Origin: Natronosalvus caseinilyticus
GTDB taxonomy: Archaea; Halobacteriota; Halobacteria; Halobacteriales; Natrialbaceae
Assembly (NCBI RefSeq): GCF_017357105.1
Contig: NZ_CP071596.1
Span: 1,426,001-1,490,000, forward strand
Length of the DNA stretch: 64,000 nucleotides
Direction: 5' to 3'
The notes under the pieces are model-generated. The model was given only the letters and a program-made list of their open reading frames with translations. It was not told the DNA's origin and did no database searches. A program made the translations under genes and the position numbers. This document shows, in pieces, positions 7,259 through 42,882 of the stretch (the stretch's first letter is position 1; each line of letters begins with the position of its first letter).

Positions 7259-7264
7259 TCTTTA

Positions 7265-8566
7265 TCACTTATCAAATAATCTGTTAAATAAATTATTTTG
7301 CTGAACGATTTTGAGTTTTGTTTCTATGGTACTAGACTCACGGCTATACTGTTCACTCATTTTGCTTACTGCAACAGTGAACTCTTTCTCGTTAATCTTC
7401 TCTCTCCCTTCGAAGAAGTACTCTCCTTGATTAAAGTCTCTCAGAAGTGATTTATATTTAATAGCCCAACCGATAGTGATAACGGGTGTATGGTTCTTAT
7501 ACGCATGAATAAGCGAGTGGTAACGAGAACCTATTAGGAAATCAAATTGGTTGATAATATGCTCAAGTTCAATTGCATTTAATTCGTCTTCAAGTAGAAT
7601 GACTCTTTCATTGTTTCTAAACTGTCGTTTTATATTGCGACAAAGATCAAGATCTTCAACTGAATGTCGAAGAATATAGATCGTCCGATTCTCTGAGAGT
7701 AATTTCTCTATAGCTGCGTCGTAGAGTGAGTACAGATCTTCGTGATCTGCGTGTTCAAACACTTTCGAATTTGGGACGATTCCAACAGCATCTGATTGGA
7801 TTTTTTCATATCTCAAATTGGGTTTATCTAAATAAATATTTCTAATGTCATATCCCTGTTTCTGAAGAACGATATCAAATTCTCTTTGAACATTATCCCG
7901 TGTATACGGAGTAAGTGATTCAACCCCCTCAACTTCCCGTGGACAAATAACTTCGGGATATTGGAGGTAAGTTTCCATCAATGGATTAATAACCTGTTTC
8001 TTTGCCATTTCATAATCGAATGGCCCAATTGATTGCGGAAATATGTACATCGGCATTCCGAATTTTCTAGCTATAATTATATTATTAATATAGATTATTG
8101 ATCCTCTGAAGCTACATTGTGAGGAGAATGCATAACCATTGATGTCAATAAGAAATGAGCAGTTTTCCAGCGCTTCATGGATCTGTTCTACTACGTCGTT
8201 TGTAAATTCAGTAGTATTGAAGTACTTCATCGAGGGAGATAGCAAAGGCAGCTGAATTTCTGCACCCCAAGGTAGGATCTCAAACGTGTATTGTGACTTC
8301 TCGTCCGTTGACCGTTGATAATCTCGTCCAGAGAGCAAAATAATGTCTTTCTCGGGAAATCGTTTGGACATCTGATCAACCACGGTAAATGTCATCGCTT
8401 GTGCCCCCTTGTTGAATAACTCTCCACCGATGATAATAATATTACTTCGGTCCGTGGAATCAGTGGGGTGATTATCTTTGGAAAACAGTAGAGTAGACAG
8501 AAGTTCCTTCTCGGTAGAAGCGGCAAGAGACATATTTCGAGCAACCTCTCTACATCTTTCACTCAT
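7265..8566 (-). CDS. Polysaccharide pyruvyl transferase family protein
   Basis: 433 residues from the ATG at 8566. IIIIGGELFNKGAQAM near residue 45 is the glycine-rich motif of the PssM/CsaB/WcaK family, and FLIGSRYHSLIHAYKNHTPVI near residue 370 is its C-terminal signature with the key SRYH. These enzymes put pyruvate ketals on sugars, or in some members build related surface glycans. An ATG at 8587 is also in frame, but the TATA box at 8591-8598 would place the transcript start near 8567, so the leaderless ATG at 8566 fits better. First gene of the operon with the flippase. Confidence 0.82.
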   Translation of the reverse strand: MSERCREVARNMSLAASTEKELLSTLLFSKDNHPTDSTDRSNIIIIGGELFNKGAQAMTFTVVDQMSKRFPEKDIILLSGRDYQRSTDEKSQYTFEILPWGAEIQLPLLSPSMKYFNTTEFTNDVVEQIHEALENCSFLIDINGYAFSSQCSFRGSIIYINNIIIARKFGMPMYIFPQSIGPFDYEMAKKQVINPLMETYLQYPEVICPREVEGVESLTPYTRDNVQREFDIVLQKQGYDIRNIYLDKPNLRYEKIQSDAVGIVPNSKVFEHADHEDLYSLYDAAIEKLLSENRTIYILRHSVEDLDLCRNIKRQFRNNERVILLEDELNAIELEHIINQFDFLIGSRYHSLIHAYKNHTPVITIGWAIKYKSLLRDFNQGEYFFEGREKINEKEFTVAVSKMSEQYSRESSTIETKLKIVQQNNLFNRLFDK

Positions 8567-8590
8567 AACCAAATACCTGTCACGCACCAG

Positions 8591-8598
8591 TATAAATA
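8591..8598. promoter_or_regulatory. TATA box between divergent glycan genes
   Basis: TATAAATA at 8591-8598 lies in the 90-base gap between the pyruvyl transferase (minus) and the nitroreductase-like gene (plus). On the minus strand it reads TATTTATA with its centre 28 bases from the ATG at 8566, the standard archaeal spacing for a leaderless transcript. On the plus strand it would give a leader of about 35 bases. Confidence 0.5.
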
Positions 8599-8656
8599 CC
8601 TCGAAGATATCGCAAGGATGAATGAAAAGATACGTTGAAGTGGCCCCAGCAGATTA

Positions 8657-9793
8657 ATGCTATTTGGAATGTCATCGATGCTTTCTCGAGGAAAATCAAT
8701 TTACTGTCAGGGAGGCACCAGGAAACTACTCCGAAAGGGTATGCAGTTTTCACTTAACATGTTCTACGAAAACGTCATCTGGAGAGCTCTTCCAAGGGAT
8801 AAGACACTTCGAACGATCTCCCGTTCACGGGTTTTAACTAGTCTATACTTCTTCTTTAAAGGAACATTCTACCAGGAACAACGTACTGTGCTTTGTGGTG
8901 TGTCAGAGTATCATAAATTGGAGGAAGAACGAGATAATTTACGGCACCGTATTATTCGAAACACTCATCGGATTGAAAAAGGTCTTTCAATGAGAAACCG
9001 CCGCCCCGTATTTGCAGAAGGGTACATTCGGGATTTAGTTAATGATTTAAAAAATGCGTGGGATCATTCCCAAGAAGATGCTCAACTCTATTGGACTATT
9101 GATGTTCTTGTCGAATACTTTGAAACGGTAGATCATACTGATGTAATAGGAGATGCGTACAGTGAGTTTTCAAGTTTCCTAGCACATATTGATCATACAC
9201 CAGGCGATCGAGTACCATTCCCACGTAGAGAATTAAGTGATCCCCCCGTGTCTCATGACGAATTAAAGCAACTTGCGACCCAGAGAACTAGTACTAGGTG
9301 GTTTCAAGACCAAGAGGTTCCAAGATATCTTATTGACAAGTCACTAGAGGTGGCGATACAATCACCGAGTGCGTGTAATAGGCAGTCATTTGAATTCAGA
9401 TTTTACGATGATCCAGAATCAATTGAGAAGATTTCTTCACTTGCCATCGGAGCTGGAGGATATAGGCATAATATTCCATGTCTAGCAGTCATTATTGGAA
9501 AGCAGCGAGCATACTTTGATTCTCGTGATAAACACGTTACTTACATCGATTCTAGTCTCGCTGCTATGGCATTCCAGTTTTCTTTGGAAACACAGGGACT
9601 CGCGTCTTGCTGTATTAATTGGCCATCTATTCCAAGCAATGACCGTCAAATAACCGATCTTCTTGGCCTAGAAAATGATGAAATCGTTATAATGTTAATG
9701 GCAATCGGTTATCCTGATCCAGATGGTCTAATCCCTTATTCTGAAAAGAAAAGGTTAGAGGACATAAGATCGTATAATGTTGGCAACTGGTGA
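8657..9793 (+). CDS. Nitroreductase-family protein of polysaccharide loci
   Basis: 378 residues. The C-terminal half (about 190-375) is a nitroreductase/FMN fold: TSTRWFQDQEVP with the phosphate-binding RxSxR-like stretch, SPSACNRQSFEF, and a late LMAIGYPDPDG motif. The N-terminal half (about 60-180) is an extra domain with RHRIIRNTHRIEKGLSMRNRRP. Such fused nitroreductases recur in capsule and exopolysaccharide clusters; their substrate is not established as far as I know. Several Met codons near the start (residues 1, 5, 8) make the exact start uncertain. AT-rich like its neighbours. Confidence 0.78.
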   Translation: MLFGMSSMLSRGKSIYCQGGTRKLLRKGMQFSLNMFYENVIWRALPRDKTLRTISRSRVLTSLYFFFKGTFYQEQRTVLCGVSEYHKLEEERDNLRHRIIRNTHRIEKGLSMRNRRPVFAEGYIRDLVNDLKNAWDHSQEDAQLYWTIDVLVEYFETVDHTDVIGDAYSEFSSFLAHIDHTPGDRVPFPRRELSDPPVSHDELKQLATQRTSTRWFQDQEVPRYLIDKSLEVAIQSPSACNRQSFEFRFYDDPESIEKISSLAIGAGGYRHNIPCLAVIIGKQRAYFDSRDKHVTYIDSSLAAMAFQFSLETQGLASCCINWPSIPSNDRQITDLLGLENDEIVIMLMAIGYPDPDGLIPYSEKKRLEDIRSYNVGNW

Positions 9794-9923
9794 TTAAATG
9801 AATGGTAGAATATGCATAACATGTGCCAGCCATGGTACAGATGCTAATGGATAGTAATCGTCTATCTATACCTACCACGTTCCATCAACTTCATATCTCT
9901 CTGATCAGAAACTTCAGAACAAT

Positions 9924-10847
9924 ATGGTAGCAATAAGTGTAATCACTCCCACATACAATCGAGTGAACGTTCTTCCACGAGCTATCGACAGTGTTCTTGA
10001 GCAGTCAATGGGAGATCTTGAATTGATAATTATTGATGATTGTTCGACAGACAACACAAAAGAAGTTATCAAATCTTACACTGACGATCGTGTGACATAC
10101 GTGCGCCTTGATAAAAATATGGGTGCTAACGCCGCTAGAAATAAAGGTATTAAAGAGTCAGAAGGAGATATTGTAGCATTTCTCGACTCTGATGATCAGT
10201 TCGAACCGAATTACCTTGGTAAAGTTCTTAATCAGTTTGATAGTAGGTCGAATCGATGTATTGGGACGTATTCCTCCCGAATTATTTATAAGGACGGAGA
10301 TAAGACCAACGTCACAATTGCAGATCAGGCAATCAAATATGAGGAGATTCTTGTGAAAAATAAGATCGGGGGTTTTTCAAACACTGCCTTTCGCCGTCGT
10401 ATCTTTGAGGAAGTCGGCTATTTGGACGAAGAGATGAGTTCCTCTCAAGACTACGATTTCTTCATCAGAGCACTGCAACCCGACGACTATTTGATTCAGC
10501 CAATCCGGGATGCCTATATTGGATATCACATCCATGACCAAGGAGAAACCCGGATTGGGGCAAATTTACAAAAAAAGATTGAAGGTCAGAATAGGCTACT
10601 GGAAAAACATCGTGACAAGTTTCCACAAGCAGGTATCGCGAATCAATACTACCAACGGGGGATGGCTCACGCTCGTTCTGGGAACATGGGAGCAGCGAGA
10701 TTTTTCTTTTGGAAGGGATTGCGAACTAATCCAAGATCTTGGCGCCACTGGTATCACTTGTTCGCTAGCTTTGGTGGCCGATACGGGATTCAGGCTGCGA
10801 GTTGGTTCAAGAAAACCTTTAAACGTCTGTTTTTTCACATTCGATAA
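9924..10847 (+). CDS. Glycosyltransferase family 2
   Basis: 307 residues. The GT-A fold is clear from VISVITPTYNRVNVL at the start, IIDDCSTDNT (nucleotide binding) and VAFLDSDDQF (the DxD metal site), followed by the SQDYDFFIRAL motif that carries the catalytic Asp region. No membrane segment is seen, so it should act on lipid-linked acceptor at the cytoplasmic face. It heads the plus-strand run to 14.2 kb. The sugar and acceptor cannot be told. Confidence 0.9.
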   Translation: MVAISVITPTYNRVNVLPRAIDSVLEQSMGDLELIIIDDCSTDNTKEVIKSYTDDRVTYVRLDKNMGANAARNKGIKESEGDIVAFLDSDDQFEPNYLGKVLNQFDSRSNRCIGTYSSRIIYKDGDKTNVTIADQAIKYEEILVKNKIGGFSNTAFRRRIFEEVGYLDEEMSSSQDYDFFIRALQPDDYLIQPIRDAYIGYHIHDQGETRIGANLQKKIEGQNRLLEKHRDKFPQAGIANQYYQRGMAHARSGNMGAARFFFWKGLRTNPRSWRHWYHLFASFGGRYGIQAASWFKKTFKRLFFHIR

Positions 10848-10887
10848 ACCACAGAGCAAATAATCTGCCCTAACTAATTATTCACCG

Positions 10888-12189
10888 ATGAATATTTCAA
10901 TCGCTTTCTTTGGCATTCTTGGCTCTGTCGGTCTATATCTCGCAGTTCGAGGTACAATTAGACAAATGCTTGCCTTCCTACTCTTTACGACGCCATTCGT
11001 TCAGTCCATTGAACTCCCATTTGTTGGTGAGAGATTTGCTGTGTTTGAGGTAATATTTGTTCTTCTGGCAATGAAATATATAATCTACGTGTATAAACGT
11101 GACGCTAAACTACAACTTCCTATTCATGTCTTTCCGTTGGTCCTTCTAATAGTTGCTGGCATCGCTTCTCTCTGGAACTCCTACAGTCTGACCTCAAGTT
11201 CTCTCATGCTATTCATTTTAATCTATTATGTGGGGTGTCTCATTGTCTGCTACCAGATTATTGACACGGTTGAAAACTTTGTCTGGTACATTAACATGTA
11301 TTTGGCAGGCGCAGCGGTGGTTCTGTTAGTGAGCATTATCGGAATGGTCGCTATCCTTATGGAGATTCCATCTTCATTTGTGTTTGAACCAAGCAATCGC
11401 CTCATCGCAACGTTTCGACGGCCGAACCAGCTCCCAGCATATCTCCATACTATTGTCCCGCTATTGGCGCTTCATCCGGCGCGATCCCGCTCCAGACGCC
11501 ATTTCTTCATGTTTGTCGGTGCAACTTTACTATCCTTTCTGGCAGTCATTGCGAGCGGATCCGACGGTTCGCTTGTAATTCTCATCGTCCAAGTCATGAT
11601 GGTCCTTGCCTACGAACTGATTTCTCGAGATATAACCTTCAGAACGGAACTTTGGGCGAGTGTTTGCGGCGGTATCGGACTTCTTATCGCGACTCCTCTA
11701 ATTATGGGTGTTCAAATGCCGTCCGCAGTCACTTCCTCGTTTGACCTATTCACTCGCCAAGACTATAGCCTGCAAGCGCTTAGCGGGCCGCGGTATCTCC
11801 AGTTTGTGTATGGGGTTCCACGGGCACTAGAGTTGCATCCGATTGTGGGTGTTGGTATCGGTGCCTCGGCAAGATTTATGAGCGTTGAGGTTGGTGGAGG
11901 TGGCTCGATCCACAATACCTTTCTCGCGATTCTGGCCACGACAGGAATTGTTGGTGGTGTATTTTTTCTAGCATTTCATATTTTGCTCGGCCGGACAGTA
12001 CTGCGCACGTTCGCAATACTACCTGATGGAGAACTCCGTCGACTTGCTGCCGGGGTGTACATTAGTTTAGCAGGTCTCTTGGCTTATGGAACCGTTCATT
12101 TTGGATTTAGACAACGGCATCTATGGCTGATTTTCATATTTGTGCTTTCATTAGGAAAAATCGCGCCAAAACTGGATAAAAGCACATGA
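10888..12189 (+). CDS. O-antigen ligase/polymerase-like membrane protein (Wzy/WaaL type)
   Basis: 433 residues with about 11-12 hydrophobic helices and one large extracellular loop (about residues 270-350) containing the sequence GVGIGASARF and then GGSIHNTFLAILATTG, the His-containing motif typical of Wzy/WaaL proteins. Members join repeat units or ligate glycan to an acceptor outside the membrane. It sits 40 bases after a GT2 gene and in the same AT-rich block, which fits polymerisation of the unit made here. Wzy and WaaL cannot be told apart from sequence. Confidence 0.82.
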   Translation: MNISIAFFGILGSVGLYLAVRGTIRQMLAFLLFTTPFVQSIELPFVGERFAVFEVIFVLLAMKYIIYVYKRDAKLQLPIHVFPLVLLIVAGIASLWNSYSLTSSSLMLFILIYYVGCLIVCYQIIDTVENFVWYINMYLAGAAVVLLVSIIGMVAILMEIPSSFVFEPSNRLIATFRRPNQLPAYLHTIVPLLALHPARSRSRRHFFMFVGATLLSFLAVIASGSDGSLVILIVQVMMVLAYELISRDITFRTELWASVCGGIGLLIATPLIMGVQMPSAVTSSFDLFTRQDYSLQALSGPRYLQFVYGVPRALELHPIVGVGIGASARFMSVEVGGGGSIHNTFLAILATTGIVGGVFFLAFHILLGRTVLRTFAILPDGELRRLAAGVYISLAGLLAYGTVHFGFRQRHLWLIFIFVLSLGKIAPKLDKST

Positions 12190-12379
12190 TTGAGGACATA
12201 CTTGGGAACAAACTACACCCCGTTTCCATGTGTTCTGATTCCGTTGTCGTGTCTATCGAAAACAGAGATAATGCACTCAAACTGTACCCAAAAACTGTGC
12301 TAAGACTTACTACAATTCATACCATAATAAAGTGTATAAATCCCTTGTATGATTTCGATTTGTTTATGTGTGATGACTC

Positions 12380-12386
12380 TATATAT
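12380..12386 (+). promoter_or_regulatory. TATA box for downstream GT2 gene
   Basis: TATATAT at 12380-12386 is placed to start transcription at about 12410, roughly 15 bases before the GT2 ATG at 12424. The 235-base gap between the polymerase gene and this GT2 therefore probably separates two transcripts. No other feature is supported in that gap. Confidence 0.4.
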
Positions 12387-12423
12387 CGATTCTAATGCGG
12401 TCCATCGTTGATCTATAATACGT

Positions 12424-13296
12424 ATGTCTAATGATAGTTCCCCCCTAGTTTCCGTAATCATCCCGATGTATAATGAGGAAGACCACATTCAAACTACTAT
12501 TAATTCACTGCTTGCTCAGACGTATCCAAATTTCGAACTTATACTTGTAGATGATGGCTCTACTGATGGGACTATAATCAAAGCTCGCTCATTCATAGAT
12601 GACGAGCAACATACGATCCTCAGAAACGAGACAAATATGGGACAGACCTTCTCAATGAATCGGGGTGCAATGCACGCCGACGGGGAATTCCTTGTGTTTC
12701 ACGATGCCGATGACATTTCGCTGCCTGTCCGTTTCGAAAAGCAGGTAGAATTCCTTGAAACTAATCCTGGCATCGGTGTCGTTGGAGGTGCGTTCTATTA
12801 TATTACTCCAAACCAGGAAACCCCGGAGCTGCGAGTTCGCCCGTCGTCTGATGGAGATATTCGGAAGAACATGGGACGTGGACCGATGATTAATGGCGGA
12901 ACAGCTATGTATCGTCGAGAGGCGCTTTTCGGAGCCGACCTCTTTCAGTCTGAAAATGTCGAAGGGTATGAACTTATAATCAAGATTGGAATCAACTGGG
13001 AGCTTGCAAATCTGTCTGACCCTGTATACGTCTACCGAATAAATGACGGATCACGGAGTCAGCACAATGAACTCGTAAAGAAAGCTACGCTTGCATATCG
13101 TAGTTGGCAAGCGATTAAAGCATTCAAACTGCCCTACCGATACCTGTTACTCCAATTCGGGTGGCTGATATACATGAATGTACCTGTGAAGATCCAGCGT
13201 CGACTCCGTTCAGCGTTTTCACCCACTACACAGTGTGAGGCAACAAAAGAAGACTGTAGAAAGATAAGAGAACTCATAGATTCGTATGCTAAGTAA
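12424..13296 (+). CDS. Glycosyltransferase family 2
   Basis: 290 residues. PLVSVIIPMYNEEDHIQ at the start, LVDDGSTDGT and VFHDADDIS mark a GT-A family 2 enzyme; GPMINGGTAMYRREAL is the acceptor-loop segment seen in the same family. No N-terminal or C-terminal membrane anchor is obvious, though the last 60 residues hold a hydrophobic stretch. Its end overlaps the sulfatase-fold gene by 11 bases, so the two are coupled. Confidence 0.9.
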   Translation: MSNDSSPLVSVIIPMYNEEDHIQTTINSLLAQTYPNFELILVDDGSTDGTIIKARSFIDDEQHTILRNETNMGQTFSMNRGAMHADGEFLVFHDADDISLPVRFEKQVEFLETNPGIGVVGGAFYYITPNQETPELRVRPSSDGDIRKNMGRGPMINGGTAMYRREALFGADLFQSENVEGYELIIKIGINWELANLSDPVYVYRINDGSRSQHNELVKKATLAYRSWQAIKAFKLPYRYLLLQFGWLIYMNVPVKIQRRLRSAFSPTTQCEATKEDCRKIRELIDSYAK

Positions 13297-14182
13297 AAGT
13301 ATTCGGCGGGGACTACAAAATCCAGAGACCGTCAAGCGAAAAATCCGGATTAATTTGGTTCGCCCGTTTGTGTCTCGATTACCTGATGAGATTCAATTTC
13401 TTGAAGAGGACTGGGATGTACTCGTCATACTTGACGCATGTCGGTACGACCTGATGGCAGAAATTGATCCATTCGAGATCTCAGTGGGGAAGGTCCATTC
13501 GAACTCTAGCCATACACGGGAGTTCATCAAGCGGAACTTTACCGGTGTCGACTGTCGAGACACCGTCTACGTGACGGCCTCGCCGCAGTTCGCGGACTTC
13601 GAACTTTCTTTCGCACACATTGAACACGTTTGGCAGAACAACTGGAACGAGAACATCCGGACGGTGCGCCCCGAACACGTCACCAAAGCTGCGATTGACC
13701 TTGATAACGAATATCCAAATAAGCGACTGATCATCCATTATATGCAGCCACACTATCCCTTCATCGGGCCAACGGGAAGAGAGATCGATGAACAAGCCAC
13801 ATTCGGTCCGAACCGTGAGAGCAAGTATAGTTCCGTGTGGGTACAACTGTCAGCTGGCCAGATTTCAGAGGCAACCGTCCGAACAGCTTATCGGGAGAAC
13901 TTGGAGCTCGTCCTTTCGGAGATGGACAGGCTCCAGTCGGAACTGACAGGAAAGATTGTCCTGACTAGCGATCACGGAAATCTCTACGGAAAACGAGTGT
14001 GCTGGCTGCCAATCCGCATCTATGGACATCCACCTGGAATACACGATCCTGAACTCACGGCTGTTCCGTGGGTCGAATTTCCTTATGAAGAACGTAGATC
14101 GATTGTCAGTGCAAACGAGTCGGCCACTAATGTAGAGTTCGAGAGTGTTGATCAACGTCTTCGTGACCTGGGCTACAGATGA
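13286..14182 (+). CDS. Sulfatase/alkaline-phosphatase superfamily protein
   Basis: 298 residues. WDVLVILDACRYDLMAEID near residue 45 supplies the metal-binding Asp and the position of the nucleophile (here ACR), HYMQPHYPFIGP near residue 150 and VLTSDHGNLYGKR near residue 230 supply the later metal ligands (DH). This is the alkaline phosphatase superfamily, with members that cleave sulfate or phosphate esters or transfer phosphoryl groups. No signal peptide is seen. Similar genes are frequent in haloarchaeal glycan loci. Whether it modifies the glycan by adding or removing sulfate or phosphate is open. Confidence 0.8.
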   Translation: MLSKSIRRGLQNPETVKRKIRINLVRPFVSRLPDEIQFLEEDWDVLVILDACRYDLMAEIDPFEISVGKVHSNSSHTREFIKRNFTGVDCRDTVYVTASPQFADFELSFAHIEHVWQNNWNENIRTVRPEHVTKAAIDLDNEYPNKRLIIHYMQPHYPFIGPTGREIDEQATFGPNRESKYSSVWVQLSAGQISEATVRTAYRENLELVLSEMDRLQSELTGKIVLTSDHGNLYGKRVCWLPIRIYGHPPGIHDPELTAVPWVEFPYEERRSIVSANESATNVEFESVDQRLRDLGYR

Positions 14183-23934: not shown

Positions 23935-24035
23935 ACTGCACGGTACACGGTATGGCGGCAAGTAGTTTACCTCTGGGTAAATTACTCTCGAGTAAATCAA
24001 ACATACTTACACTCGAAATTGGGAGGTGTTCTCGC

Positions 24036-25514
24036 TCACGCCGTGTCGATCTCGGGGATTACAAACCGCAGATAGTAGGACTCGCGGGTGTACACGGCGT
24101 CCATCGACGGGGCTTTCTCCTGGACGTACACGTCCATAGCGACGAGTTCCTCGTCGTAGTGGACGATCAGATCCCCCGTCTGGGCCGACCCCATATTCTG
24201 GATGTCGCCAATGGCCAGCGCGCCGTACAGTTCGAACTCGCCGTGCATGTACAGCGTCGATTCGGAGGCGTGGACGTACCCCGTCACGCTGATATCGTCG
24301 GGGTCGGCGCGTTCGCCGCGTCGTTCTTCGCCCGCCTGGATGTCACCAGCGACGAAGACACGCACGGTGGACGCCCGATGGGGATTGCCAGCGGTTTCGA
24401 TCCGGACGTCATCGCCCAGCTCGAGGTCGCCCGTCACGTACACTTGAAGCTCGTCATCAGCGACGATTGTCGCGTTCTCGAGCGTGAGGTCACCATCGAC
24501 GAATAGGGAGGTGTCATCGGCCAGGTAGAGCGTCTGATCCCTGACCTCGAGGTCACCGTCCGTATGGTACGACCCGCCGGCTTCGAGGGTGGTCAAGTTC
24601 GATGCTCCGATCTGGGCACCCTGGGTTGACTCCTGGGCTGCGATGACGTCGCTCGTGGGCACTGGCACAGAGACGTTGTCGGCATACTCGACGACCTGAT
24701 CCTCTGTGAGCCAGGGACCGGGGGTGATCGACTCACCTGAGATAACGCGCTCGACCTGAAGGTCCATCGTGCCACCGCCACCGGCCGCAAAGTGCAGTTC
24801 GTTCGGCGAGCGAATCGTTGCGTTGGCCCCGCGATTGTCCCCGTCATAGGCCCCCGCCGAGGAGGCGTAGCTGTCGACCCACAGTCGATCGATCTCGCCG
24901 ACCGTCACGCCCCCTGACTCCCCGAAGGCAATCGCCGACGAAACGGTCGATGGCCGTGGCGCGTTGCCCCCTTCGAAGACCACCTCGACGGTCTCGCCGT
25001 CGACCAGCCGCGCGTCACCGTGGTCTTCGAACGCCTCGTACCAGGCCGGCGCGTACGCACTGTGGACGGTGAGGGTCACGTTCGCGGTCGGATCCTCGAC
25101 GCGAATCGCTGTCGTTCCCGTTCGCTCGAGGTCGCCAGAAAACGTCTCACCGGCAAGTCGCGGCACCGTAATCTGCGTCGCCCGCTCCCGCGTCTCGACG
25201 GCCGGCTGCCTGATAGCCCGACCGTCCTGCACCACGAGGCCGCCTTCGTACACCAGGCCATCGGTCACGAGCCGCCCCATCGTCTCGTTGTATGCCTCTT
25301 GGCCGTCGACGCTGATCACGAGCCGTCCACCCTCGCCCCGCTCATACGACTCCTCGAGGCCGACAGCCTGGCGATCGCCTTCCCCCAGCGAGGAAATCTC
25401 GTGGGCGACCGTCTGCATCTCGAGGCGATCCCGTTCTGTCTCGGCTTCGTCTTGCACTAGCTCTAGTCCACTCACTCCCACAGTCGCAATCGCCGTGGCT
25501 CCCACCAGTACCAT
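24036..25514 (-). CDS. Pilin-like surface protein (DUF7289-type) with 5-prime end cut by TnpB element
   Basis: 492 residues from the first in-frame Met. Upstream of it the frame continues as GRAQAEVLGVVLLFG, which is the start of a type IV pilin-like hydrophobic N-terminus, but then runs straight into the TnpB element end at 25561 and meets a TAA there, with no start codon. The ectodomain has Ig-like strands followed by a bactofilin/polymer-like strand repeat region (VDGDLTLENATIV, VTGDLELGDDV, FVAGDIQAG). The cell-surface role is inference. Translation from 25514 would leave a shortened membrane segment, so the protein is probably not normally exported. Confidence 0.7.
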   Translation of the reverse strand: MVLVGATAIATVGVSGLELVQDEAETERDRLEMQTVAHEISSLGEGDRQAVGLEESYERGEGGRLVISVDGQEAYNETMGRLVTDGLVYEGGLVVQDGRAIRQPAVETRERATQITVPRLAGETFSGDLERTGTTAIRVEDPTANVTLTVHSAYAPAWYEAFEDHGDARLVDGETVEVVFEGGNAPRPSTVSSAIAFGESGGVTVGEIDRLWVDSYASSAGAYDGDNRGANATIRSPNELHFAAGGGGTMDLQVERVISGESITPGPWLTEDQVVEYADNVSVPVPTSDVIAAQESTQGAQIGASNLTTLEAGGSYHTDGDLEVRDQTLYLADDTSLFVDGDLTLENATIVADDELQVYVTGDLELGDDVRIETAGNPHRASTVRVFVAGDIQAGEERRGERADPDDISVTGYVHASESTLYMHGEFELYGALAIGDIQNMGSAQTGDLIVHYDEELVAMDVYVQEKAPSMDAVYTRESYYLRFVIPEIDTA

Positions 25515-25564
25515 CCCAAAGAGGAGGACGACTCCGAGAACCTCCGCCTGTGCACGCCCCGTGA

Positions 25565-25600
25565 CATCCTCCCCTCGTTAAGATGGGGCTTCCCTACAAG
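25565..25600 (-). repeat. Right-end hairpin of element 1
   Basis: On the minus strand: AGCCCCATCTTAACGAGGGG then AGGATGTCAC. The stem is imperfect (CCCC/GGGG core). In TnpB systems of the IS605 group the 3-prime end of the guide (omega/re) RNA comes from this segment and the guide is the flanking DNA, which here is the first codons of the pilin-like gene. Confidence 0.55.
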
Positions 25601-25611
25601 GGGAATGCCAG

Positions 25612-26883
25612 TTAGTCGTTGCTGGCAGTGGGTTTTGGCTCTTGAAACGGCGTGAGTGTCATCTGCGCTGGTGCGCTCTGCTCACGGTGAGTCGTGGCCG
25701 TGTCACTACGGCTCCCGTCCTGTGGCGAGTCATCGCCTGCCTGTTTCCACGGCAGGCTCTCTCCCCACGGGTCTACGCGATGTGCGATGTTCGCACTCGC
25801 GTTAATATCTGCTTGAAACGTCGAAACGTGGCACGCCGGGTTCTTGCATTTAAACTCGGCTTGCCGAGGCCGATACCCGATCTGCTTGCACGCGTGGCAC
25901 GTCTTCGAAGTATACTGCGGATGAACGTATCGAACCGGAATACCCGCGTCCTTCGCCTTGTCGTCGATTCGTCCCTGCAAGCGAGCGAACGCCCACGAAT
26001 GCAGGCGTCGGTTCATGTACGTCCCGTAATCCAGCGACTCGCGGATGTACGCCAAGTCTTCCATTGCGATGACTGGATTCTCGAACTGCTTAGCATACTC
26101 CACAGCCTCACGAGAGGCTTTCTCGATGATGTCTGTGAGCCGGTTCTGGTAGAACGAGAACCGTTCTTCGATACGCCACTCCGAGGCGTCTCGTTCTTGG
26201 AGACGCTTGAGAGTCGTGAACATCTCCTTGCGGAGTCGTTTGGCTTCTTTCCCGTTGATTAGCAGTGGTTTCGTGGGAGTGTCGTGCTGGAGGGCACAGC
26301 CCGTGACCAGCATCGACTCGCCAATATCGAAGCCGACGTGAGTCGGGTTCTCGGGCATTTCGGTCGTGTCTTCGATCCCGTATTCAACGGTAACGTGGAG
26401 TGTCCACGTCGTACGGCATTTCTGTAAGCGAAGTTCGCCCACCTTGGTACTCGACTCCTTATTGAGCAGATCGTCCCACAAGTCTTGCTGGTCTGGGTTC
26501 AGTCGGAGCGGAATCCAGAAGTTGGTTCCGCGACCGGGTTGCGGGACGTTCCAGCAGATTTCGTACTTGCGCGAGGTATCGCGGTCGAACTTTCCAGCTC
26601 GATTGACGAATCGGAGGGGGTGGTTGTCGTCCAACTCGTTCGCGTTGTACGTTTTGTGGAGTTTGGGGACGTAGGATTTGAGGGCGTCTTTTGCTTGGTA
26701 CGGCAGGCTGTACGGCGTCACCACGTCGTTCGTGGCGCTCATCGTCGTACAGTCTTGCTCGAAGGCGTCTTCGAGAGCTTCACGGTATTCAGACAGCGTT
26801 TGTTGAAGACATTGCTCTTTGCACCGAGTGGGTGGCGCGAGCGTGGCTTCCAGCGTCTTATTCGCTGTCGGAGTCGTTGACAT
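25612..26883 (-). CDS. tnpB: TnpB RNA-guided endonuclease (IS1341-type)
   Basis: 423 residues from the ATG at 26883 (an in-frame ATG at 26901 adds 6). All three RuvC residues are in place: D186 in VGFDIGES, E275 in VIAMEDLAYI and D359 in FQADINASANIA. A zinc ribbon lies between (C329, C332, C346, C351). TnpB uses an RNA from the element's right end to cut DNA next to a short target-adjacent motif, which keeps the element at its site. The tail after residue 375 is disordered and probably overlaps the guide-RNA coding region. Catalytically it looks intact. The small ORF upstream overlaps its start by 26 bases. Confidence 0.9.
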   Translation of the reverse strand: MSTTPTANKTLEATLAPPTRCKEQCLQQTLSEYREALEDAFEQDCTTMSATNDVVTPYSLPYQAKDALKSYVPKLHKTYNANELDDNHPLRFVNRAGKFDRDTSRKYEICWNVPQPGRGTNFWIPLRLNPDQQDLWDDLLNKESSTKVGELRLQKCRTTWTLHVTVEYGIEDTTEMPENPTHVGFDIGESMLVTGCALQHDTPTKPLLINGKEAKRLRKEMFTTLKRLQERDASEWRIEERFSFYQNRLTDIIEKASREAVEYAKQFENPVIAMEDLAYIRESLDYGTYMNRRLHSWAFARLQGRIDDKAKDAGIPVRYVHPQYTSKTCHACKQIGYRPRQAEFKCKNPACHVSTFQADINASANIAHRVDPWGESLPWKQAGDDSPQDGSRSDTATTHREQSAPAQMTLTPFQEPKPTASND

Positions 26884-27019
26884 CGTAGCCTTCGGATTCA
26901 AGTGCTTTACGGAGGAGTTCGGGGTACGCCCGTGAGTGGCGAATCCCGTGGTCGCGGGCGTATTGCTTCACGGCTTCGTGGAGCGGCCCGCCTCGCTCCA
27001 TATTGAAGTCGGCTCTCAT
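26858..27019 (-). CDS. Small RHH-like protein coupled to tnpB (element 1)
   Basis: 53 residues: MRADFNMERGGPLHEAVKQY and then ARDHGIRHSRAYPELLRKALE. One strand followed by two helices fits a ribbon-helix-helix fold. It is clearly related to the 44-residue ORF of element 2 (shared pattern MRxDxxxxRGxxLHExVKxY, then GxRxxxAYxEL). A CTTTAA TATA box centred near 27048 would start transcription at about 27021, so the mRNA is leaderless and begins with this ORF. It overlaps tnpB by 26 bases. Likely an autorepressor or tnpB partner; this is inference. Confidence 0.6.
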   Translation of the reverse strand: MRADFNMERGGPLHEAVKQYARDHGIRHSRAYPELLRKALESEGYDVNDSDSE

Positions 27020-27043
27020 CCATCAAAACGTAAGATATTGCGT

Positions 27044-27052
27044 AAGTTAAAG
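27044..27052 (-). promoter_or_regulatory. TATA box of small ORF-tnpB unit, element 1
   Basis: CTTTAACTT on the minus strand, centred 29 bases before the ATG at 27019. The same CTTTAA box at the same distance precedes the corresponding ORF of element 2. Confidence 0.5.
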
Positions 27053-27134
27053 ATAACGCTCAACATTCAGACTAAGCGTCAGAACGTGGTTCGTTCAGCA
27101 AATATCGGATTCCCTCTCGCTGCAAACGGTGAGA

Positions 27135-27151
27135 TTCCTTCATTGAAGGAA
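27135..27151 (-). repeat. Left-end hairpin of element 1
   Basis: A perfect 8-base inverted repeat (TTCCTTCA, one base, TGAAGGAA) near the left terminus. It occupies the same place as the CCCG/CGGG hairpins at the left ends of the other elements, although the stem sequence differs. Confidence 0.5.
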
Positions 27152-27302
27152 GTTGTCATGTCAGCCCAACGGTGGTATACATACACATTATGGCGAGTTT
27201 AACATTCTGCAAATCGAATGGGTTGCCTAACCGAAGGAACAACACAGGTAGGCAGCCGAATGGACTGTCCAGAACGCTCGAGCGACACGACCGCGACGAT
27301 AG

Positions 27303-27656
27303 CTACGCGTCCGGATCGACGAGCTCGGCCTGCCCGGCGGTCCCTTCGACCTCAGTTACGCGGACGGTCGCCTGGATACCCATCACTTCTTCTTCGAGAA
27401 AGAGAACGAATCCGCCGTCGGTTTTGCAAACGAGCGTCCCGTCGGGCTTCTCGTCGACGATGTCGACGGTCAGTTCGTCGCCCGGTTCGGGTTTCCCGCC
27501 GAGGGGCTCCCCGCACCGCCAGCACTCCGTATCGTACGCTGGCGTGCCTTCAGGCGCGTTGTTCGCGCCACACCTCGGCGTATCGCATTTGATGAACGTC
27601 TCGTGTTCGCCTGGTAAATAACGTCCCACGCTACCACTGTCGAGAGCCAGGAGCAA
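27303..27656 (-). CDS. Zinc-ribbon/TRAM-like nucleic-acid-binding protein
   Basis: Up to 117 residues; a GTG at about residue 10 (VGRYLPGEHETFIKC) is an alternative start. Two CxxxxC/CxxC pairs (KCDTPRCG and ECWRCGEPLGG) make a zinc ribbon, and GDELTVDIVDEKPDGTLVC to the end looks like a TRAM/OB-type beta barrel, an RNA-binding module common in haloarchaea. It may act as a small RNA chaperone-like protein. Stand-alone gene just downstream of the TnpB element and a decayed toxin-antitoxin locus. Confidence 0.65.
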   Translation of the reverse strand: MLLALDSGSVGRYLPGEHETFIKCDTPRCGANNAPEGTPAYDTECWRCGEPLGGKPEPGDELTVDIVDEKPDGTLVCKTDGGFVLFLEEEVMGIQATVRVTEVEGTAGQAELVDPDA

Positions 27657-27665
27657 AAAGGTCGT

Positions 27666-27710
27666 TCATTCCTCGAAGAGTCCCTTCGCGCTGGTATCGA
27701 CGACGATCAT
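27666..27710 (-). pseudogene. VapC (PIN-domain toxin) stub
   Basis: Directly after the antitoxin stop codon an ATG at 27710 opens MIVVDTSAKGLFEE and stops. MIVVDTSA is the exact first strand of PIN-domain VapC toxins, with the first catalytic Asp. The remaining about 115 residues are missing, so only a stub of the toxin is left, apparently an internal deletion. Confidence 0.5.
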
Positions 27711-28012
27711 TCACAGGTCTGTGAGTTCGTCTGTCAGTTCGTCGCCCTGCTCGAGAACGGTTTTCGATGCCCGGAGCGCCTCTGCATCCTGCCGACCGAG
27801 AACGGTTTTCAGGGTGTCGAACTCGATCTGATCCTCGAGGTAGAGTTCGGTGACCCCTTCCTTAAATCGGCTTCGTCCTCGATCCCCTCGAAGTACTCCT
27901 GGAGTGCTTCCTTGATGACCTCGGTCCGATTTTTGTGAGCGACTTTGGCGACGAGATCTGCCTTCTTGACCAGTTCGTTCGGTAGTATAATGTTGACTCT
28001 CCTGGTTCCCAT
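27711..28012 (-). pseudogene. RHH (CopG-type) antitoxin, frameshifted
   Basis: From the ATG at 28012 the frame reads MGTRRVNIILPNELVKKADL, then HKNRTEVIKEALQEYFEGIEDEADL, a typical ribbon-helix-helix antitoxin. It then goes out of frame near 27865; the proper continuation FKEGVTELYLEDQIEFDTLK... and LEQGDELTDELTDL is found in the next frame and ends one base before the VapC stub. A single frameshift thus separates the DNA-binding and toxin-binding parts. With the truncated toxin it is a dead VapBC-like module. Confidence 0.65.
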
Positions 28013-28221
28013 ACCAACACCTCTTGTACGTCCGTTCTACTCGCGTCTGTGTAATTGCTTCCCTCGCCACTACGTCTCCGTGTCGACACGTTCCGTCTGT
28101 TCGGCGACTGGCCGTTCTGCGTCACTCGGCTGGTCGCTCGGACCATGGGAGCTGGTCCAAACTCCCGAAGCACTGTCGACTGGACTCCACCGTCCTCGGC
28201 CCCCAGGGCTCGAATGGCCTG

Positions 28222-30204
28222 TTACTCGAGGCGCATCCGCTCGAGACAGAACCGCTCTGCTTCGCCCGGCTGATCGTCGAGGAGGCTCGCCGCTCGCGAC
28301 GGCAGTCGGAAGGCGGCGCGACCAGCATACGGCATCGCGTAGGCCTCGCTGACCGCCTCGGCGTTCGCCAGGGTGAGGCCGTCGGCGAGAAAGCGCTCGC
28401 GCGAGAGACCGTAGCAGATGGCGGCGTCCGACGCGGCCGTGACGACGCCGACGTCGGACAGGGTGTTTTCCGTTCCCTCTTGGTCGACAAGCGACGGGTG
28501 GCTACTCGAATCAGTGAGACCACTCCCGCGGAGCCACAGATCGAAGCGGGCGGCTGGGTCGAGCCCGTCATCCTCGAGTGTAGCCAGTTCGCGGAGTTGC
28601 TCGGCGAAGTCCGGGTAGCGCAGCGCGTCGAGCGTCGGGGCGTCGGACTCGACATCGGTTATCGAAATCGAGAGTTCGCGACGCTCTCCGGGCGCTAACC
28701 TCGTGGACTCGCTGTGACCGAGGCTGGCAGCTTCGAACGCCGTCTCCCCCAGCGCGCGGTCGACGAGCGCGGCTACCTCCTGTGCGGGCACGTAGGCCCC
28801 AGGATCGAACGGGACCGCGACTGCGGCGTCAACGGTGGTGCCTTCGCTGTCGGCGGGCGTCTCGATTTGAAGTTCGAGCACCCCGTCCTCGAGAAAGCGG
28901 TCGCGATCCAGCGCGTGAAAGCACGTGGCCCGGTCGGTCACCGCGCTGGCGTCCGGGTACTCGCCATTGGCGTATCCCCCGAGGTCGCCGAGGTACGTCC
29001 ACGCCCCATTGTGTGTTCGCGCCGCCAATCGATGGTCGGCGTACCCGAAGCTGTCGCCGACTACCCAGAGGTCGAACGCCTCGTCGGCGTCGAACCCGTC
29101 ACGGCTCGCGAGCGTCGCCGCCCAGGCGTACTGGAAGCGATCCCGGGCGATCGTGAAGGTGTTGATGGCGTCCCCATCGGGCTCGGCGCCGGGAACGTTC
29201 GGCACGAAGGGATCGAAGCCGGCCTCCGTGGGCACGTAGCCGTTCCGGACGTACCACCCGAGCCCGCTCGCACCCGCCGAAAGCGCCGTTCGAATCGTCA
29301 TTCCGAGCGTCTCCTTATTCGGCGTGTGGTTCGGGTTGACGGTGTGACTCTGACCGAGGTAGAACACGGGCCGATCGTCGAGGACGTCTCGAGCGTTCGA
29401 GACGAGACTGTGGAGAGCAGCGTTGGCCCGAGCTGGTTCGACGTCCTTGTCGAACCAGCCCCGGTAGAAGTCGGTGAACGCGAACGCCGGGGCGATGTCG
29501 CGTGCATACATCTTCTGGAGGAGTTCCTCGAACACCTCGGGGCGCTTCGAATCGATAATATATGGAAAGTGGACGAACAACCCAACGTCGAGCTCGTCGG
29601 TAACCGATTCGACAGCGTCTTTCTGGGCGGCGAAGATCTCCGGCCCCAGCTCGAGCAGGTTGTCGACGGCTTCCTCGGTCCACTCGCCACCGGGAACCCA
29701 CTGCCCGATAACGGGGGCCTCCTGCCAGAGAATCACCCGCCCGCGGTCGAAGAACTCGCCGTGGGCAGTGACGACCGACTTCAGCCACTCGAGGTGAGTC
29801 TCTCGAGCCTGTTCATCGTTCACGAACGCTTCGGCGGGGATTTCGCTCAACAGTCCCGTATTGAGCCAGACCTCTAGCCCGTACTCGCTCGCAGACTCGA
29901 GAGCCGCGGTGAACGCCTCGGTGTCGGGGCCGCTCGAGGGGGAGACGACCAGCACGACCGCGAGGTCGTGTCGCTGGGCGAACGCGAACAGGTTCTCGCG
30001 GACGGTTTTCTGCGGCCACTGCCCGCCCGACAGCCAGAGGAAGTCTTGGCGAGATTCGGACGCGTCGGCGACCGGTGGCGAGTCGAATCGGTGGTGAGCC
30101 AGGCCACCGATCGCGCCGAGGCCGAGACCAGCGGCCAGGGCGAGCGAGCCGCGACGCGAGAGACGAGTACCAACGGTCGACCATCTGGAGGAATCCTCGG
30201 GCAT
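28222..30204 (-). CDS. Large exported protein with glycoside-hydrolase-like barrel
   Basis: 660 residues from the ATG at 30204 (MPEDSSRWSTVGTRLSRRGS); SRRGSLALAAGLGLGAIGG is a Tat-like signal. Residues about 50-360 alternate strands and helices as in a TIM barrel (DLAVVLVVSPSSG, GLEVWLNTGLL, DVGLFVHFPYI, AFAFTDFYRGWF, ASGLGWYVRNGYV), a layout like that of extracellular glycoside hydrolases. The rest is beta-rich. I do not recognise a named family and can assign no catalytic acids. Its place between glycan-related relics and UppP suggests a role in surface polymers, which is inference. Confidence 0.65.
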   Translation of the reverse strand: MPEDSSRWSTVGTRLSRRGSLALAAGLGLGAIGGLAHHRFDSPPVADASESRQDFLWLSGGQWPQKTVRENLFAFAQRHDLAVVLVVSPSSGPDTEAFTAALESASEYGLEVWLNTGLLSEIPAEAFVNDEQARETHLEWLKSVVTAHGEFFDRGRVILWQEAPVIGQWVPGGEWTEEAVDNLLELGPEIFAAQKDAVESVTDELDVGLFVHFPYIIDSKRPEVFEELLQKMYARDIAPAFAFTDFYRGWFDKDVEPARANAALHSLVSNARDVLDDRPVFYLGQSHTVNPNHTPNKETLGMTIRTALSAGASGLGWYVRNGYVPTEAGFDPFVPNVPGAEPDGDAINTFTIARDRFQYAWAATLASRDGFDADEAFDLWVVGDSFGYADHRLAARTHNGAWTYLGDLGGYANGEYPDASAVTDRATCFHALDRDRFLEDGVLELQIETPADSEGTTVDAAVAVPFDPGAYVPAQEVAALVDRALGETAFEAASLGHSESTRLAPGERRELSISITDVESDAPTLDALRYPDFAEQLRELATLEDDGLDPAARFDLWLRGSGLTDSSSHPSLVDQEGTENTLSDVGVVTAASDAAICYGLSRERFLADGLTLANAEAVSEAYAMPYAGRAAFRLPSRAASLLDDQPGEAERFCLERMRLE

Positions 30205-40601: not shown

Positions 40602-41990
40602 TCAGTTACCGATCGCTCGATTGACGTCACTCAAATTGAACAAACGTAGATCATCGCGCTCGGATACTGCCTCCTGGACGGACTGTGTTGCGCCGCTCCG
40701 TGTGAATAGCGCGTATTCCGTGGCGGAACCATCTGCGTTTGGCCCCCAGCGAATTTCTTCTACGTGGTCCTCGAGCGAGGCAAGAGCACCGTAGTCGAGC
40801 GGTGCATTCGTGAATTTGCACTCCCCTGCAACGATTGTCCCATCTGTGGCCAGTCCGACGACGTCGACCTCGTGCTCCTTGTACCACCAGCGGCCGATGT
40901 CGAGAAACGTCGTCTCTGGGTAGAGGTTCGGCAGGGCGTCCTGGCACAGTTTCTCGAACTCTGGACTGACGAAGTCAGCCATCTCTGGCTCGATGATTGC
41001 CTCGTATGCCTCCTCACCGAGGCGTTCGTATCGGTCCTCCTTGCCGTAGACGAAGCGGAACCAAAACCGAAACAGGGGGTCTCGGATCCGGTAGCGTCCA
41101 CGGCGTGACTTCGCTTTCTCTTCAGTAATCGGTACTTCGCGCTCGATGAGTCGTAATCGCTCTAGCTTCTGTGTGTACGTCGAGATCTGCTTCCCATCGA
41201 TTCCGATTGCCTGGGCGATCTCGTTCGACGTCGTTTTGCCCGCTGCGATCGTAGTGAGGATTGCAAAATACCGATTCGGGTCGGTGAGTTCCGTCCGAAG
41301 CACGTACTCCGGTTCGTTGTGAAGGTAGCCGTTCTGGGAGAACACTTCTTCGGTGAGAATCGTCCCGAGGGTCTGGTTGAGGTCGATGCCATCGAGATAG
41401 TACGGAGTACCGCCAAAGGTACCCCAGACGAAGATCCGCTCTTCAGGCGAGTACTCATCTGGGATGAACTCCTGTGCGGCGGCGAAGTCGAGGGGACGGA
41501 GGTCGAGCCGTTCTGTAAACCGCCCGTACAGGGGACTGTTCCCGAGTAGTGTCGCTTCTTCCATCATACTGATCGACGACCCGATCAGAATGAGCGTCCC
41601 CGACGTGTTTTGGAACTGCTGGTCCCACAACCGCTGGATGACTGAGGGGAGACTCTCGTCGGCGTCGATAAGATACGGAAATTCGTCGAGGACGACGACC
41701 CCGCCCTGATCGCCGAGATATCCGAGCAGTGCTTCCCAATTCTGTCTGATCTGTGTAATGCTGGGAAACGCCTCGGACGCGACATCGACGAATTCGTCGA
41801 GTTGAATCTGTGCCGTGGTCTCCGTGGCCTGAAAGATGACAGCATCATCGCGGTCGGCGAGCGAATGCTGGACGAGCTGTGTCTTCCCGAGACGTCGTCG
41901 CCCAAAAATGACGATCATTTCGGCATCATCGGACTCGTAGCTCCCTCGCAAGCGTGAGAGTTCGACTTCCCGATTGACGAAGTCCTCCAT
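40602..41990 (-). CDS. AAA+ ATPase of the archaeal DUF234 type
   Basis: 462 residues. Walker A FGRRRLGKTQLV near residue 30, Walker B GGVVVLDEFPYLID near 105, sensor residues in LILIGSSISMME, then a winged helix (TSNEIAQAIGIDGKQISTYT) and a C-terminal DUF234 nuclease-like domain (EHEVDVVGLATDG, GECKFTNAPLDYG with E-x-K as in PD-(D/E)xK folds). Archaeal members are linked to mobile DNA and may control DNA. No partner is seen nearby. The function is not proven. Confidence 0.88.
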   Translation of the reverse strand: MEDFVNREVELSRLRGSYESDDAEMIVIFGRRRLGKTQLVQHSLADRDDAVIFQATETTAQIQLDEFVDVASEAFPSITQIRQNWEALLGYLGDQGGVVVLDEFPYLIDADESLPSVIQRLWDQQFQNTSGTLILIGSSISMMEEATLLGNSPLYGRFTERLDLRPLDFAAAQEFIPDEYSPEERIFVWGTFGGTPYYLDGIDLNQTLGTILTEEVFSQNGYLHNEPEYVLRTELTDPNRYFAILTTIAAGKTTSNEIAQAIGIDGKQISTYTQKLERLRLIEREVPITEEKAKSRRGRYRIRDPLFRFWFRFVYGKEDRYERLGEEAYEAIIEPEMADFVSPEFEKLCQDALPNLYPETTFLDIGRWWYKEHEVDVVGLATDGTIVAGECKFTNAPLDYGALASLEDHVEEIRWGPNADGSATEYALFTRSGATQSVQEAVSERDDLRLFNLSDVNRAIGN

Positions 41991-42361
41991 ACGTCTACTT
42001 ACTCTCGGTGGTGAATAATACTTCCGAATAGCCTAACTCAAAATAGCCTAACTCAAAATTGGCTATTTTCAAATCTTTATGGACATCTGGGAACAGGGAC
42101 GGGGTTTCGCCCGATTACCGTCAAAGCAGCCGGTGCCCCCGTCGAACTGATCGAGAAGATACTTCGGAATTGGAATGGATTTGCCGGGGGTGGTTGCTCG
42201 AACACGTTTTACATCTAGGCACGTGAGATAGAACGACTTTTCGGTACATACCGTTCGTCGTCGTCCGCTCGCTCTAATCAGTGTGTGCCCAACCGACACG
42301 CCCCCGGGTTCGAAATCCTTTTAGGCGCTACCCGGGCATAGTAGAGTAACTGAGTGATATC
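41991..42361. other. Intergenic region upstream of rps24e, with promoter
   Basis: About 370 bases. The first 70 are AT-rich, with a 15-base direct repeat (agcctaactcaaaat, copies at 42031 and 42045) before the AAA+ gene start. CTTTTAGG at 42318-42325 is a TATA-like box that would start the ribosomal transcript near 42348. GGTTCGAAATCC at 42308 recalls a tRNA T-arm but nothing else of a tRNA is present. Confidence 0.4.
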
Positions 42362-42673
42362 ATGGACGTCGACATCATCTCCGAGGAGGAAAATCCCATG
42401 TTGCACCGCTCGAACGTCACGTTCGAACTGACCCACGACGAGGCGACGCCCTCGCGTCTGCAGGTCCGTGACAGCCTCGCCGCGAAGCTGAACAAGGACG
42501 CCGACGAGGTCGTCATCCGCAAACTCGACACCAAGTTCGGCATGCGAAAGACCGTCGGCCACGCGAAGGTCTATGAGACCTCCGCTCACGCCACCGAGGT
42601 CGAACAGGAGCACATGCTCGAGCGCAACAAGATCGTCAGCGACGAGAGCGACGTCGAAGCGGAGGAGGCCTGA
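42362..42673 (+). CDS. rps24e: 30S ribosomal protein S24e
   Basis: 103 residues. [20 protein letters not shown] and then LRRxxVxFxL-like [20 protein letters not shown] are characteristic, as is [20 protein letters not shown] (G-x-x-x-x-x-G-x-A) of S24e. It is the first gene of the conserved archaeal order rps24e-rps27ae-kae1. Small-subunit protein, cytosolic. Confidence 0.97.
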
Positions 42674-42674
42674 G

Positions 42675-42809
42675 ATGGCACACTACGAACTCTACAACGA
42701 CGAGGGCGAAGTCGAGCGCGAACAGTGCCCACGCTGTGGGGACTCGTTCCTCGCCGACCACGGCGACCGCCAGCACTGCGGCAAGTGCGGCTACACCGAG
42801 TGGGCGTAA
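42675..42809 (+). CDS. rps27ae: 30S ribosomal protein S27ae
   Basis: 44 residues starting one base after the S24e stop. A zinc ribbon with [12 protein letters not shown] and [10 protein letters not shown] (C-x2-C ... C-x2-C) is the whole protein, as usual for archaeal S27ae, which lacks the ubiquitin part of the eukaryal fusion. Too short for many gene finders but certain by context and motif. Confidence 0.97.
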
Positions 42810-42882
42810 GCCGGCTCGAGATCCGTTTCGTCGCCGTGTCGAACCGAACTCGACCAAGACCACGATTTTTTACACGTGAGGA

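Follow-up and report, generated by a model that had tools for sequence, protein, structure and literature searches.

TnpB elements without a tnpA of their own form a group that we take to be the one named IS1341. The TnpB lineage has also given rise to TldR, TnpB-derived repressors that target flagellin genes, and some insertion sequences supply expression signals to the gene that adjoins them. The tnpB genes of haloarchaea carry omega RNAs, or sense-overlapping transcripts (sotRNAs), which, according to the available part of PMC12558985, are apparently processed from the tnpB transcript. For ISDra2 from Deinococcus radiodurans, the available part of PMC10097598 gives the order tnpB, overlapping RNA, right end, with the guide located at the 3' end of the RNA. 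TnpB likely maintains its transposon, as stated in the available part of PMC10278001, and PMC11870625 deals, by its title, with insertion sequences in plasmids and with RNA-guided nucleases as their gene drive.

The window analysed here is a stretch of 64,000 nucleotides from Natronosalvus caseinilyticus. It contains a TnpB element directly in front of a pilin-like gene that is read in the same direction (Table 1).

Table 1. Features of the element and the displaced gene, with positions in the window.
Feature	Positions	Strand	Basis
TnpB element, IS200/IS605 kind, own TnpA absent, 1592 bases	25561..27152	minus	Empty sites, ends of relatives
Right-end terminus GAGGATGTCAC	25561..25571	minus	Exact in 30/34 related places, different sequence beyond
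Former target motif, at present ACAA; congeners and related elements have CYAT	27153..27156	minus	
Former AT of the start codon, now AA	27153..27154	minus	Comparison with L010, L011
Third base (G) of the former start codon; at present the flank and the predicted guide begin with it	25560..25560	minus	Congener comparison
Native upstream region, 87 bases	27159..27245	minus	Zero changes peculiar to the genome of the window
Displaced DUF7289/DUF7305 gene, codons 2 onward, 507 codons + stop	24036..25559	minus	Pfam; orthologues L010, L011
In-frame TAA within the element	25578..25580	minus	Read from sequence
GGAGG, Shine-Dalgarno-like, 5 bases ahead of the ACG (25562-25560) replacing ATG	25568..25572	minus	Read from sequence
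Next in-frame ATG, within the hydrophobic stretch	25512..25514	minus	Read from sequence; homologue alignment
tnpB frame, 423 aa from ATG 26883 (429 aa from TTG 26901)	25612..26883	minus	Pfam, structure-chain alignment
Predicted guide, 20 bases: G of ATG + codons 2 to 7	25541..25560	minus	Directly 3' of right end; ISDra2 layout (PMC10097598, available part)

The uninterrupted gene and the point of insertion

Orthologues of the displaced gene were searched for in eight Natronosalvus genomes, including that of the window (G000). Two close ones were found, L010 in G004 (90% residue identity) and L011 in G002 (86%), and the element is absent from both. In both congeners the gene starts as ...CGCYAT|GGGGCGTGCACAG, i.e. 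ATG GGG CGT GCA CAG (M-G-R-A-Q). Around the junction, G004 reads ...CCGTTGGGCAGACACGCTAT|GGGGCGTGCACAGG, G002 reads ...CCGTTGGGCTGACACGCCAT|GGGGCGTGCACAGA, and the window reads ...CCGTTGGGCTGACATGACAA|element|GGGGCGTGCACAGG. An extra TTG is present in L010 five codons farther upstream of the ATG; because L011 has a stop before that position, the ATG is the start common to both congeners. A protein scan of selected genomes for the displaced gene gave 17 stretches that matched the pattern, none of which encodes a relative.

The left flank of the element is 96% and 93% identical to the uninterrupted congeners over 117 bases, and the right flank is 93% and 90% identical over 100 and 103 bases. The junction is therefore not due to chance. 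The flanks of the window and the congeners are equal in length, so that zero target bases were lost. Judged from this alignment, the insertion point is, to the exact base, between the AT and the G of the pilin-like gene's ATG. The start codon is, by the same comparison, the sole broken codon, and the residues after Met are all in place. The preliminary description of this DNA had located the insertion at the very start of the gene and had looked to uninterrupted orthologues for comparison; G004 and G002, which keep the ATG exactly at the junction, bear this out. Its claim that the start codon and the first residues are gone or lie 1.6 kb away held for the codon, which is broken and whose first two bases lie at 27154-27153, and failed for the residues. 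The uninterrupted alleles belong to two congeners, and thus to other species than that of the window. Without the element, the site in the species of the window would be expected to read ...CGCYATGGGGCGTGCACAG.

Ends and target motif of the element

Among the 34 distinct related places listed, 30 carry the right-end terminus exactly and three (L024, L035, L045) with one substitution, which was the tolerance of the search pattern; only in the fragment L006 was the terminus not found. The left boundary falls at 27152/27153, as given by the congener comparison and the ends of related elements, and an earlier placement at about 27164 had to be corrected. Two other readings of the left end, an ATGAC motif and a deletion with loss of CGCCAT, were dropped: congeners and related elements show CYAT|CTT, with flanks of equal length. 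Some match to the element occurs in 87 of the 125 genomes of the family. The pattern GGCGRG(N)GAGGATGTCAC was found in 173 of the 391 genomes of the class, with 0 control hits among the matches listed.

The analysed stretches (140) are part of the places listed, contig-end places and some others being left out, and the places listed are themselves a part of all matches. For the analysis of the ends, 227 distinct right ends were reduced to 80, namely those that score 14 or higher at the left end and contain a frame of 250 or more codons on the same strand. The left ends show CTAT or CCAT, mostly with CTT next. By pattern, 41 CTAT and 13 CCAT were counted (n = 54), the pattern itself imposing YYAT. 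By weight matrix, the 80 elements gave 42 CTAT, 17 CCAT, 11 TCAT and 10 others, with the same lean toward the motif, as the matrix was built from the 54 pattern-found left ends with the motif included.

An exact independent empty site is available for L022, which is one of the two closest relatives (84% identical). Its left flank ...GGTCCAT and its right flank ATATGCC... are contiguous in L066, from another genome of the genus of L022. CYAT is therefore host sequence and the element begins with C. A fixed motif of 4-5 bases beside the insertion, with neither duplication nor loss of the target, is exact for L022 versus L066; at the window insertion, the flanks keep the conserved length and the motif has been altered since. 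The empty sites of L023 were not used, their junction being too diverged. Across these ends, CYAT appears as the target motif of the element family, with TCAT as a likely variant. CYAT followed by G contains ATG, and the target motif therefore overlaps the start codon that is split (CY-AT|G). The motif of the window itself has changed since the insertion, and we infer its form at that time from the congeners.

TnpB, its RNA and the predicted guide

The tnpB frame matches Pfam Cas12f1-like_TNB (2.4e-15) and aligns to solved TnpB/Cas12f chains, best to 9nzq (9.7e-15, residues 121-369). The alignment covers VGFDIGE, MEDL, the CxxC pair and ADINAS, which are the RuvC-type motifs and the zinc-ribbon cysteines. 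A TnpB with RuvC/TNB and zinc ribbon, as is characteristic of IS200/IS605 TnpB elements, is thus encoded. The four Y1 transposase matches in the genome all lie outside the element, which accordingly contains no tnpA. The tnpB frame is open in the window, and the copies in L022 and L023 are damaged (frames as read).

Several further observations were made on these elements and on the window. Right upstream of tnpB, a frame of 52 residues without Pfam match is located (window 26863-27019, minus); it has 14 matches among the 80 related elements, with 92-98% identity in three and 52-65% in nine others shown. L022, L023, L002, L003, L030 and L032 are longer by about 56 bases close to the tnpB stop (near 25620 of the window); the added bases read as two hairpins in the coding and RNA region. 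This extra is absent from the window copy and, judging by the continuous alignment, from L024 to L029. A count of a double-hairpin module was discarded, as its matches lay at implausible positions. A second, more distant tnpB relative (L005) occupies 46687-47025 of the window on the plus strand, inside the frame 45830-47149. Positions 6001-14000 have a G+C content of 41-46%, compared to 54-70% in the remaining 2-kb steps, and are possibly an acquired block.

The guide had been proposed to be exactly the first codons of the gene, and the guide predicted here agrees with that. The motif and the predicted target persist in the congeners, with 20 of 20 bases in G004 and 19 of 20 in G002. A search of the own genome (YAT ahead, at most three mismatches at any position) returned the junction itself, where CAC for CAT is the single mismatch, and six places that differ at three positions, which makes seven matches versus 15 for the reversed control. 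No second place with the motif and a good guide match was found in this genome.

The right-end hairpin of the window reaches -3.0 kcal/mol (z 0.05, 38 bases), compared to -11.2 (z -3.0) for L022 and -11.4 kcal/mol (z -2.6) for L023 over 44 bases. At the left end the values are -6.5 kcal/mol (z -0.92) in the window, -9.0 (z -1.0) in L022 and -11.6 kcal/mol (z -2.9) in L023. No Rfam match up to E 1 was obtained for window 24000-28500 or for the window copy of the element (L001), and the sotRNA families RF02656 and RF02657 gave none in that copy. Over ten loci, HgcC was matched in eight at 22-31 bits, none of them reaching the gathering score of 50, and L005 gave another weak match. In view of the weak end hairpins and the lack of an Rfam match, the RNA of the window copy may have lost its function. 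Against decay of the RNA speak the last 100 bases of the copy, whose fold is better than that of shuffled sequences and has the lowest z of the four compared (-2.5).

Reading frame and start of the displaced gene

Pfam assigns DUF7305 (4.4e-20) and DUF7289 (2.3e-13, starting at residue 2) to the displaced frame. On the minus strand it runs as G-R-A-Q-A-E-V-L-G-V-V-L-L-F-G from 25559 to the Met at 25514, and onward to the stop at 24036. Its R-A-Q-A is presumably a class III signal peptide motif, with processing at R-A|Q-A; such signal peptides are cut by a prepilin peptidase. The sequence and the right ends of the relatives confirm that the frame continues above this Met to the element end at 25561, and the in-frame TAA ascribed to the element is indeed found at 25580-25578. 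Read in frame with the gene, the element supplies TAA CGA GGG GAG GAT GTC, followed by the junction codon ACG (25562-25560), of which AC comes from the element end and G from the flank. Read directly, the sequence has no ATG, GTG or TTG between this TAA and the Met at 25514.

The N-terminus could be aligned in 32 of 38 homologous loci, the other six giving no match. In 21 of these 32 a start codon lies at most 14 codons before position 1. Seven, including both 86-90% orthologues, have it at the codon immediately preceding position 1. For the remaining 11 the 14 codons shown contain no stop, and a start was placed in none of them. These data bear on the idea that the natural start is the Met at 25514 and that the element merely lies upstream of it. 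That ATG is the first standard start past the element, and homologues often have a start-type codon there. However, an ATG directly precedes GRAQ in both close orthologues, DUF7289 already begins at the second residue of the longer frame, and the frame is open upstream of the residue aligned with position 1 in 32 of 32 homologues. No orthologue with its start at the Met of 25514, the observation which the preliminary description had named as contrary to its view, was seen among them. For the uninterrupted gene a start at 25514 is largely contradicted by these alignments, and the idea is hardly credible.

Selection on the displaced gene and the cupin parallel

Along the branch to this genome, the displaced gene has accumulated 56 synonymous and 32 nonsynonymous changes, a ratio of 0.20; the ratios on the other two branches are 0.14 and 0.31. 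The counts are simple and uncorrected, with 19 three-way sites left out. The ratio of 0.20 departs from neutrality (binomial p 1e-13), and the frame contains zero stops and zero shifts. The counts point to purifying selection on the displaced gene along this branch, on which the insertion could fall late.

The gene may be a pseudogene by now, its intact frame only reflecting a recent insertion, and the chances of this appear evenly balanced. Such a state would agree with the stretch that follows the in-frame TAA, in which neither ATG nor GTG nor TTG occurs ahead of the Met at 25514. It would agree as well with the upstream region, where 0 of the 87 bases upstream of -6 are peculiar to this genome, as fits a promoter constrained until recently; at the same 87 bases, L010 and L011 differ from each other at six. 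On the other hand, three of the six junction-adjacent flank bases of the window (-6, -4 and -1) differ from both congeners, and together with the weak hairpins this suggests an insertion of some age. Moreover, a cupin gene that lost its ATG in the same way can stay under selection.

This cupin-like gene adjoins a second such element of the genome, L002 (G000 C1, about 41988-43611, minus). The site is common to G002 (L030) and G004 (L032) and hence to three species, and the three elements, aligned over 1624 columns with one single-base gap, share 95-96% identity. L002 splits CCT-AT|G-GGG-TAC of the gene, which has 105 further codons. Within the genus, no uninterrupted version of the cupin site was found, and the native start was taken from the homologue L375 in G119 (another genus, 67% identical), which has its ATG at exactly the same place. 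Over the three branches, the cupin gene shows 21 synonymous and 10 nonsynonymous changes (ratio 0.15, p 3e-7), with no stop or shift. If the shared insertion is inherited, these changes all postdate it. The conserved start-less cupin gene thus indicates that a gene losing its ATG in this way can remain under selection. The tnpB on the cupin side has a one-base shift in G000 and a stop 35 codons early in G002. The cupin insertion is older than that of the window. In G004, an interruption of about 1.5 kb is also seen directly after the cupin stop codon (L053, L054; C1 43637-45642).

It is conceivable that translation of the displaced gene continues from the element, starting at GGAGG-N5-ACG of a transcript that also spans tnpB and the guide RNA. 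The intact frame with its 32 nonsynonymous versus 56 synonymous changes would fit this, and so would the older cupin insertion, where the gene is conserved and tnpB is damaged. Against it stands that ACG is generally poor as a start codon and that a limited literature search gave no haloarchaeal precedent. The cupin parallel is also incomplete. At the cupin locus a GTG is present in frame within the element, 13 codons upstream; the TAA rules out an upstream in-frame start in the window, and what remains is the ACG 5 bases past GGAGG. Although GGAGGATGTCAC is found in 69 of the 80 related elements, this set was selected by its GAGGATGTCAC ending, and the terminus therefore serves the element anyway. 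Finally, the insertion could be of any age within the branch. On balance, element-driven translation is a real possibility that falls somewhat short of an even chance.

Insertions at start codons

With two of the four places that match over more than 1 kb in this genome sitting at start codons, the TnpB elements of this family might prefer start codons as such. For a test, 10 of the 80 elements (left end not CTAT, CCAT or TCAT) and one duplicate (L030 of L002) were removed, which left 69; the window copy stands outside these. Among the dropped elements are L022, misplaced by one base though its empty site is exact, and L308, which has the left end CGAT and also opens 375 codons. By a mechanical criterion, a frame of at least 100 codons is opened at AT|G in four of the 69 independent insertions. 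Elsewhere in these flanks the corresponding numbers are 22 of 1376 for CYAT/TCAT sites (binomial p 0.025, Fisher 0.03) and 16 of 819 for CYAT sites (binomial 0.046, Fisher 0.06). Yet when the proteins are read, only the cupin (L002) and a subtilase-like case (L041) look like genuine starts, i.e. two of the four, and one of the four seems to run antisense to a gene. Significance in these tests is borderline, and the window case was picked for being at a start. A preference for start codons is thus unlikely, and the borderline excess is not claimed here. In L041, from another genus, the element lies between AT and G, and its end precedes GAGACGGAG; the gene reads as a subtilase with a twin-arginine-like N-terminus (MRRRTFIRTGAS...).

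Proposed mechanism

As a whole, the locus is very probably explained by insertion of the TnpB element at CY-AT|G, presumably by a TnpA acting in trans and followed by guide-aided fixation, and by loss of the normal start. A TnpA in trans would have pasted the element, and the four Y1 transposases of the genome could move it in this way. Directed by an RNA that has the adjoining guide at its end, TnpB would afterwards cut those chromosome copies that still contain CYAT and the target, which is the uninterrupted start. Such cutting would help the insertion to become fixed in a polyploid cell. The native upstream region would now lead into the element, with tnpB and the gene both on its strand.

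For the product of the gene, three outcomes can be ranked. Loss or strong reduction of the normal product would be the likeliest, at about one chance in two. Continued weak translation from the GGAGG-N5-ACG supplied by the element comes second, being plausible to a slightly lesser degree. A functional short form from the Met at 25514 is improbable and ranks last because it lacks the putative R-A|Q-A processing motif. A more general proposal concerns TnpB elements with a CYAT motif that land on CY-AT|G starts: their terminus GGAGGATGTCAC would supply a ribosome-binding site and replace the lost ATG by the ACG (or by a GTG in frame farther upstream). The gene would then survive the insertion as the tail of the guide-RNA transcript and stay selected, as with the cupin. 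This proposal is doubtful, with a chance well below that of the weak translation just described. If true, the element has made a host gene dependent on the element's own RNA end.

Comparison with known systems

The locus provides a base-exact TnpB case in which the predicted guide is the gene's own beginning and an intact target persists in sister species. It also yields a target motif for the haloarchaeal element family (CYAT, with TCAT as a likely variant). In the titles and abstract openings of the papers that the literature searches listed, neither a TnpB element splitting a start codon nor a CYAT motif was found. If start-less genes past such elements are made, as the cupin suggests, an insertion at the start codon is not a knock-out, and start calling beside these elements needs care.

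Like the insertion sequences that supply signals to their neighbors, the element ends next to a frame in the same direction and could give it a transcript and a ribosome-binding sequence. Unlike these, it would offer a start-like ACG and GGAGG via the guide-RNA terminus and no outward promoter. Common to it and TldR are the TnpB lineage and a guide that matches the beginning of a gene of surface-filament type. In contrast to TldR, the TnpB of the window retains its RuvC motifs, and the guide match is the insertion site itself.

The locus also resembles the tnpA-less TnpB elements of haloarchaea (PMC12558985, available part) in several features: a tnpB with TNB domain, a flank-derived guide, an RNA region expected at the tnpB 3' end and the right end, and a left-end motif that stays host sequence. 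The window differs from these in that its target overlaps a start codon and its motif is CYAT, and in the weak hairpins, altered motif and missing Rfam match of its copy, also to RF02656 and RF02657, the sotRNA families which that paper names. With the ISDra2 TnpB it has the order of the components and the RuvC nuclease in common, whereas ISDra2 uses the motif TTGAT and has its own tnpA (PMC10097598, available part). Only a distant relation is to be expected. Compared with these systems, the locus is a new and well-defined insertion of a known element type, ordinary in kind and precisely documented.
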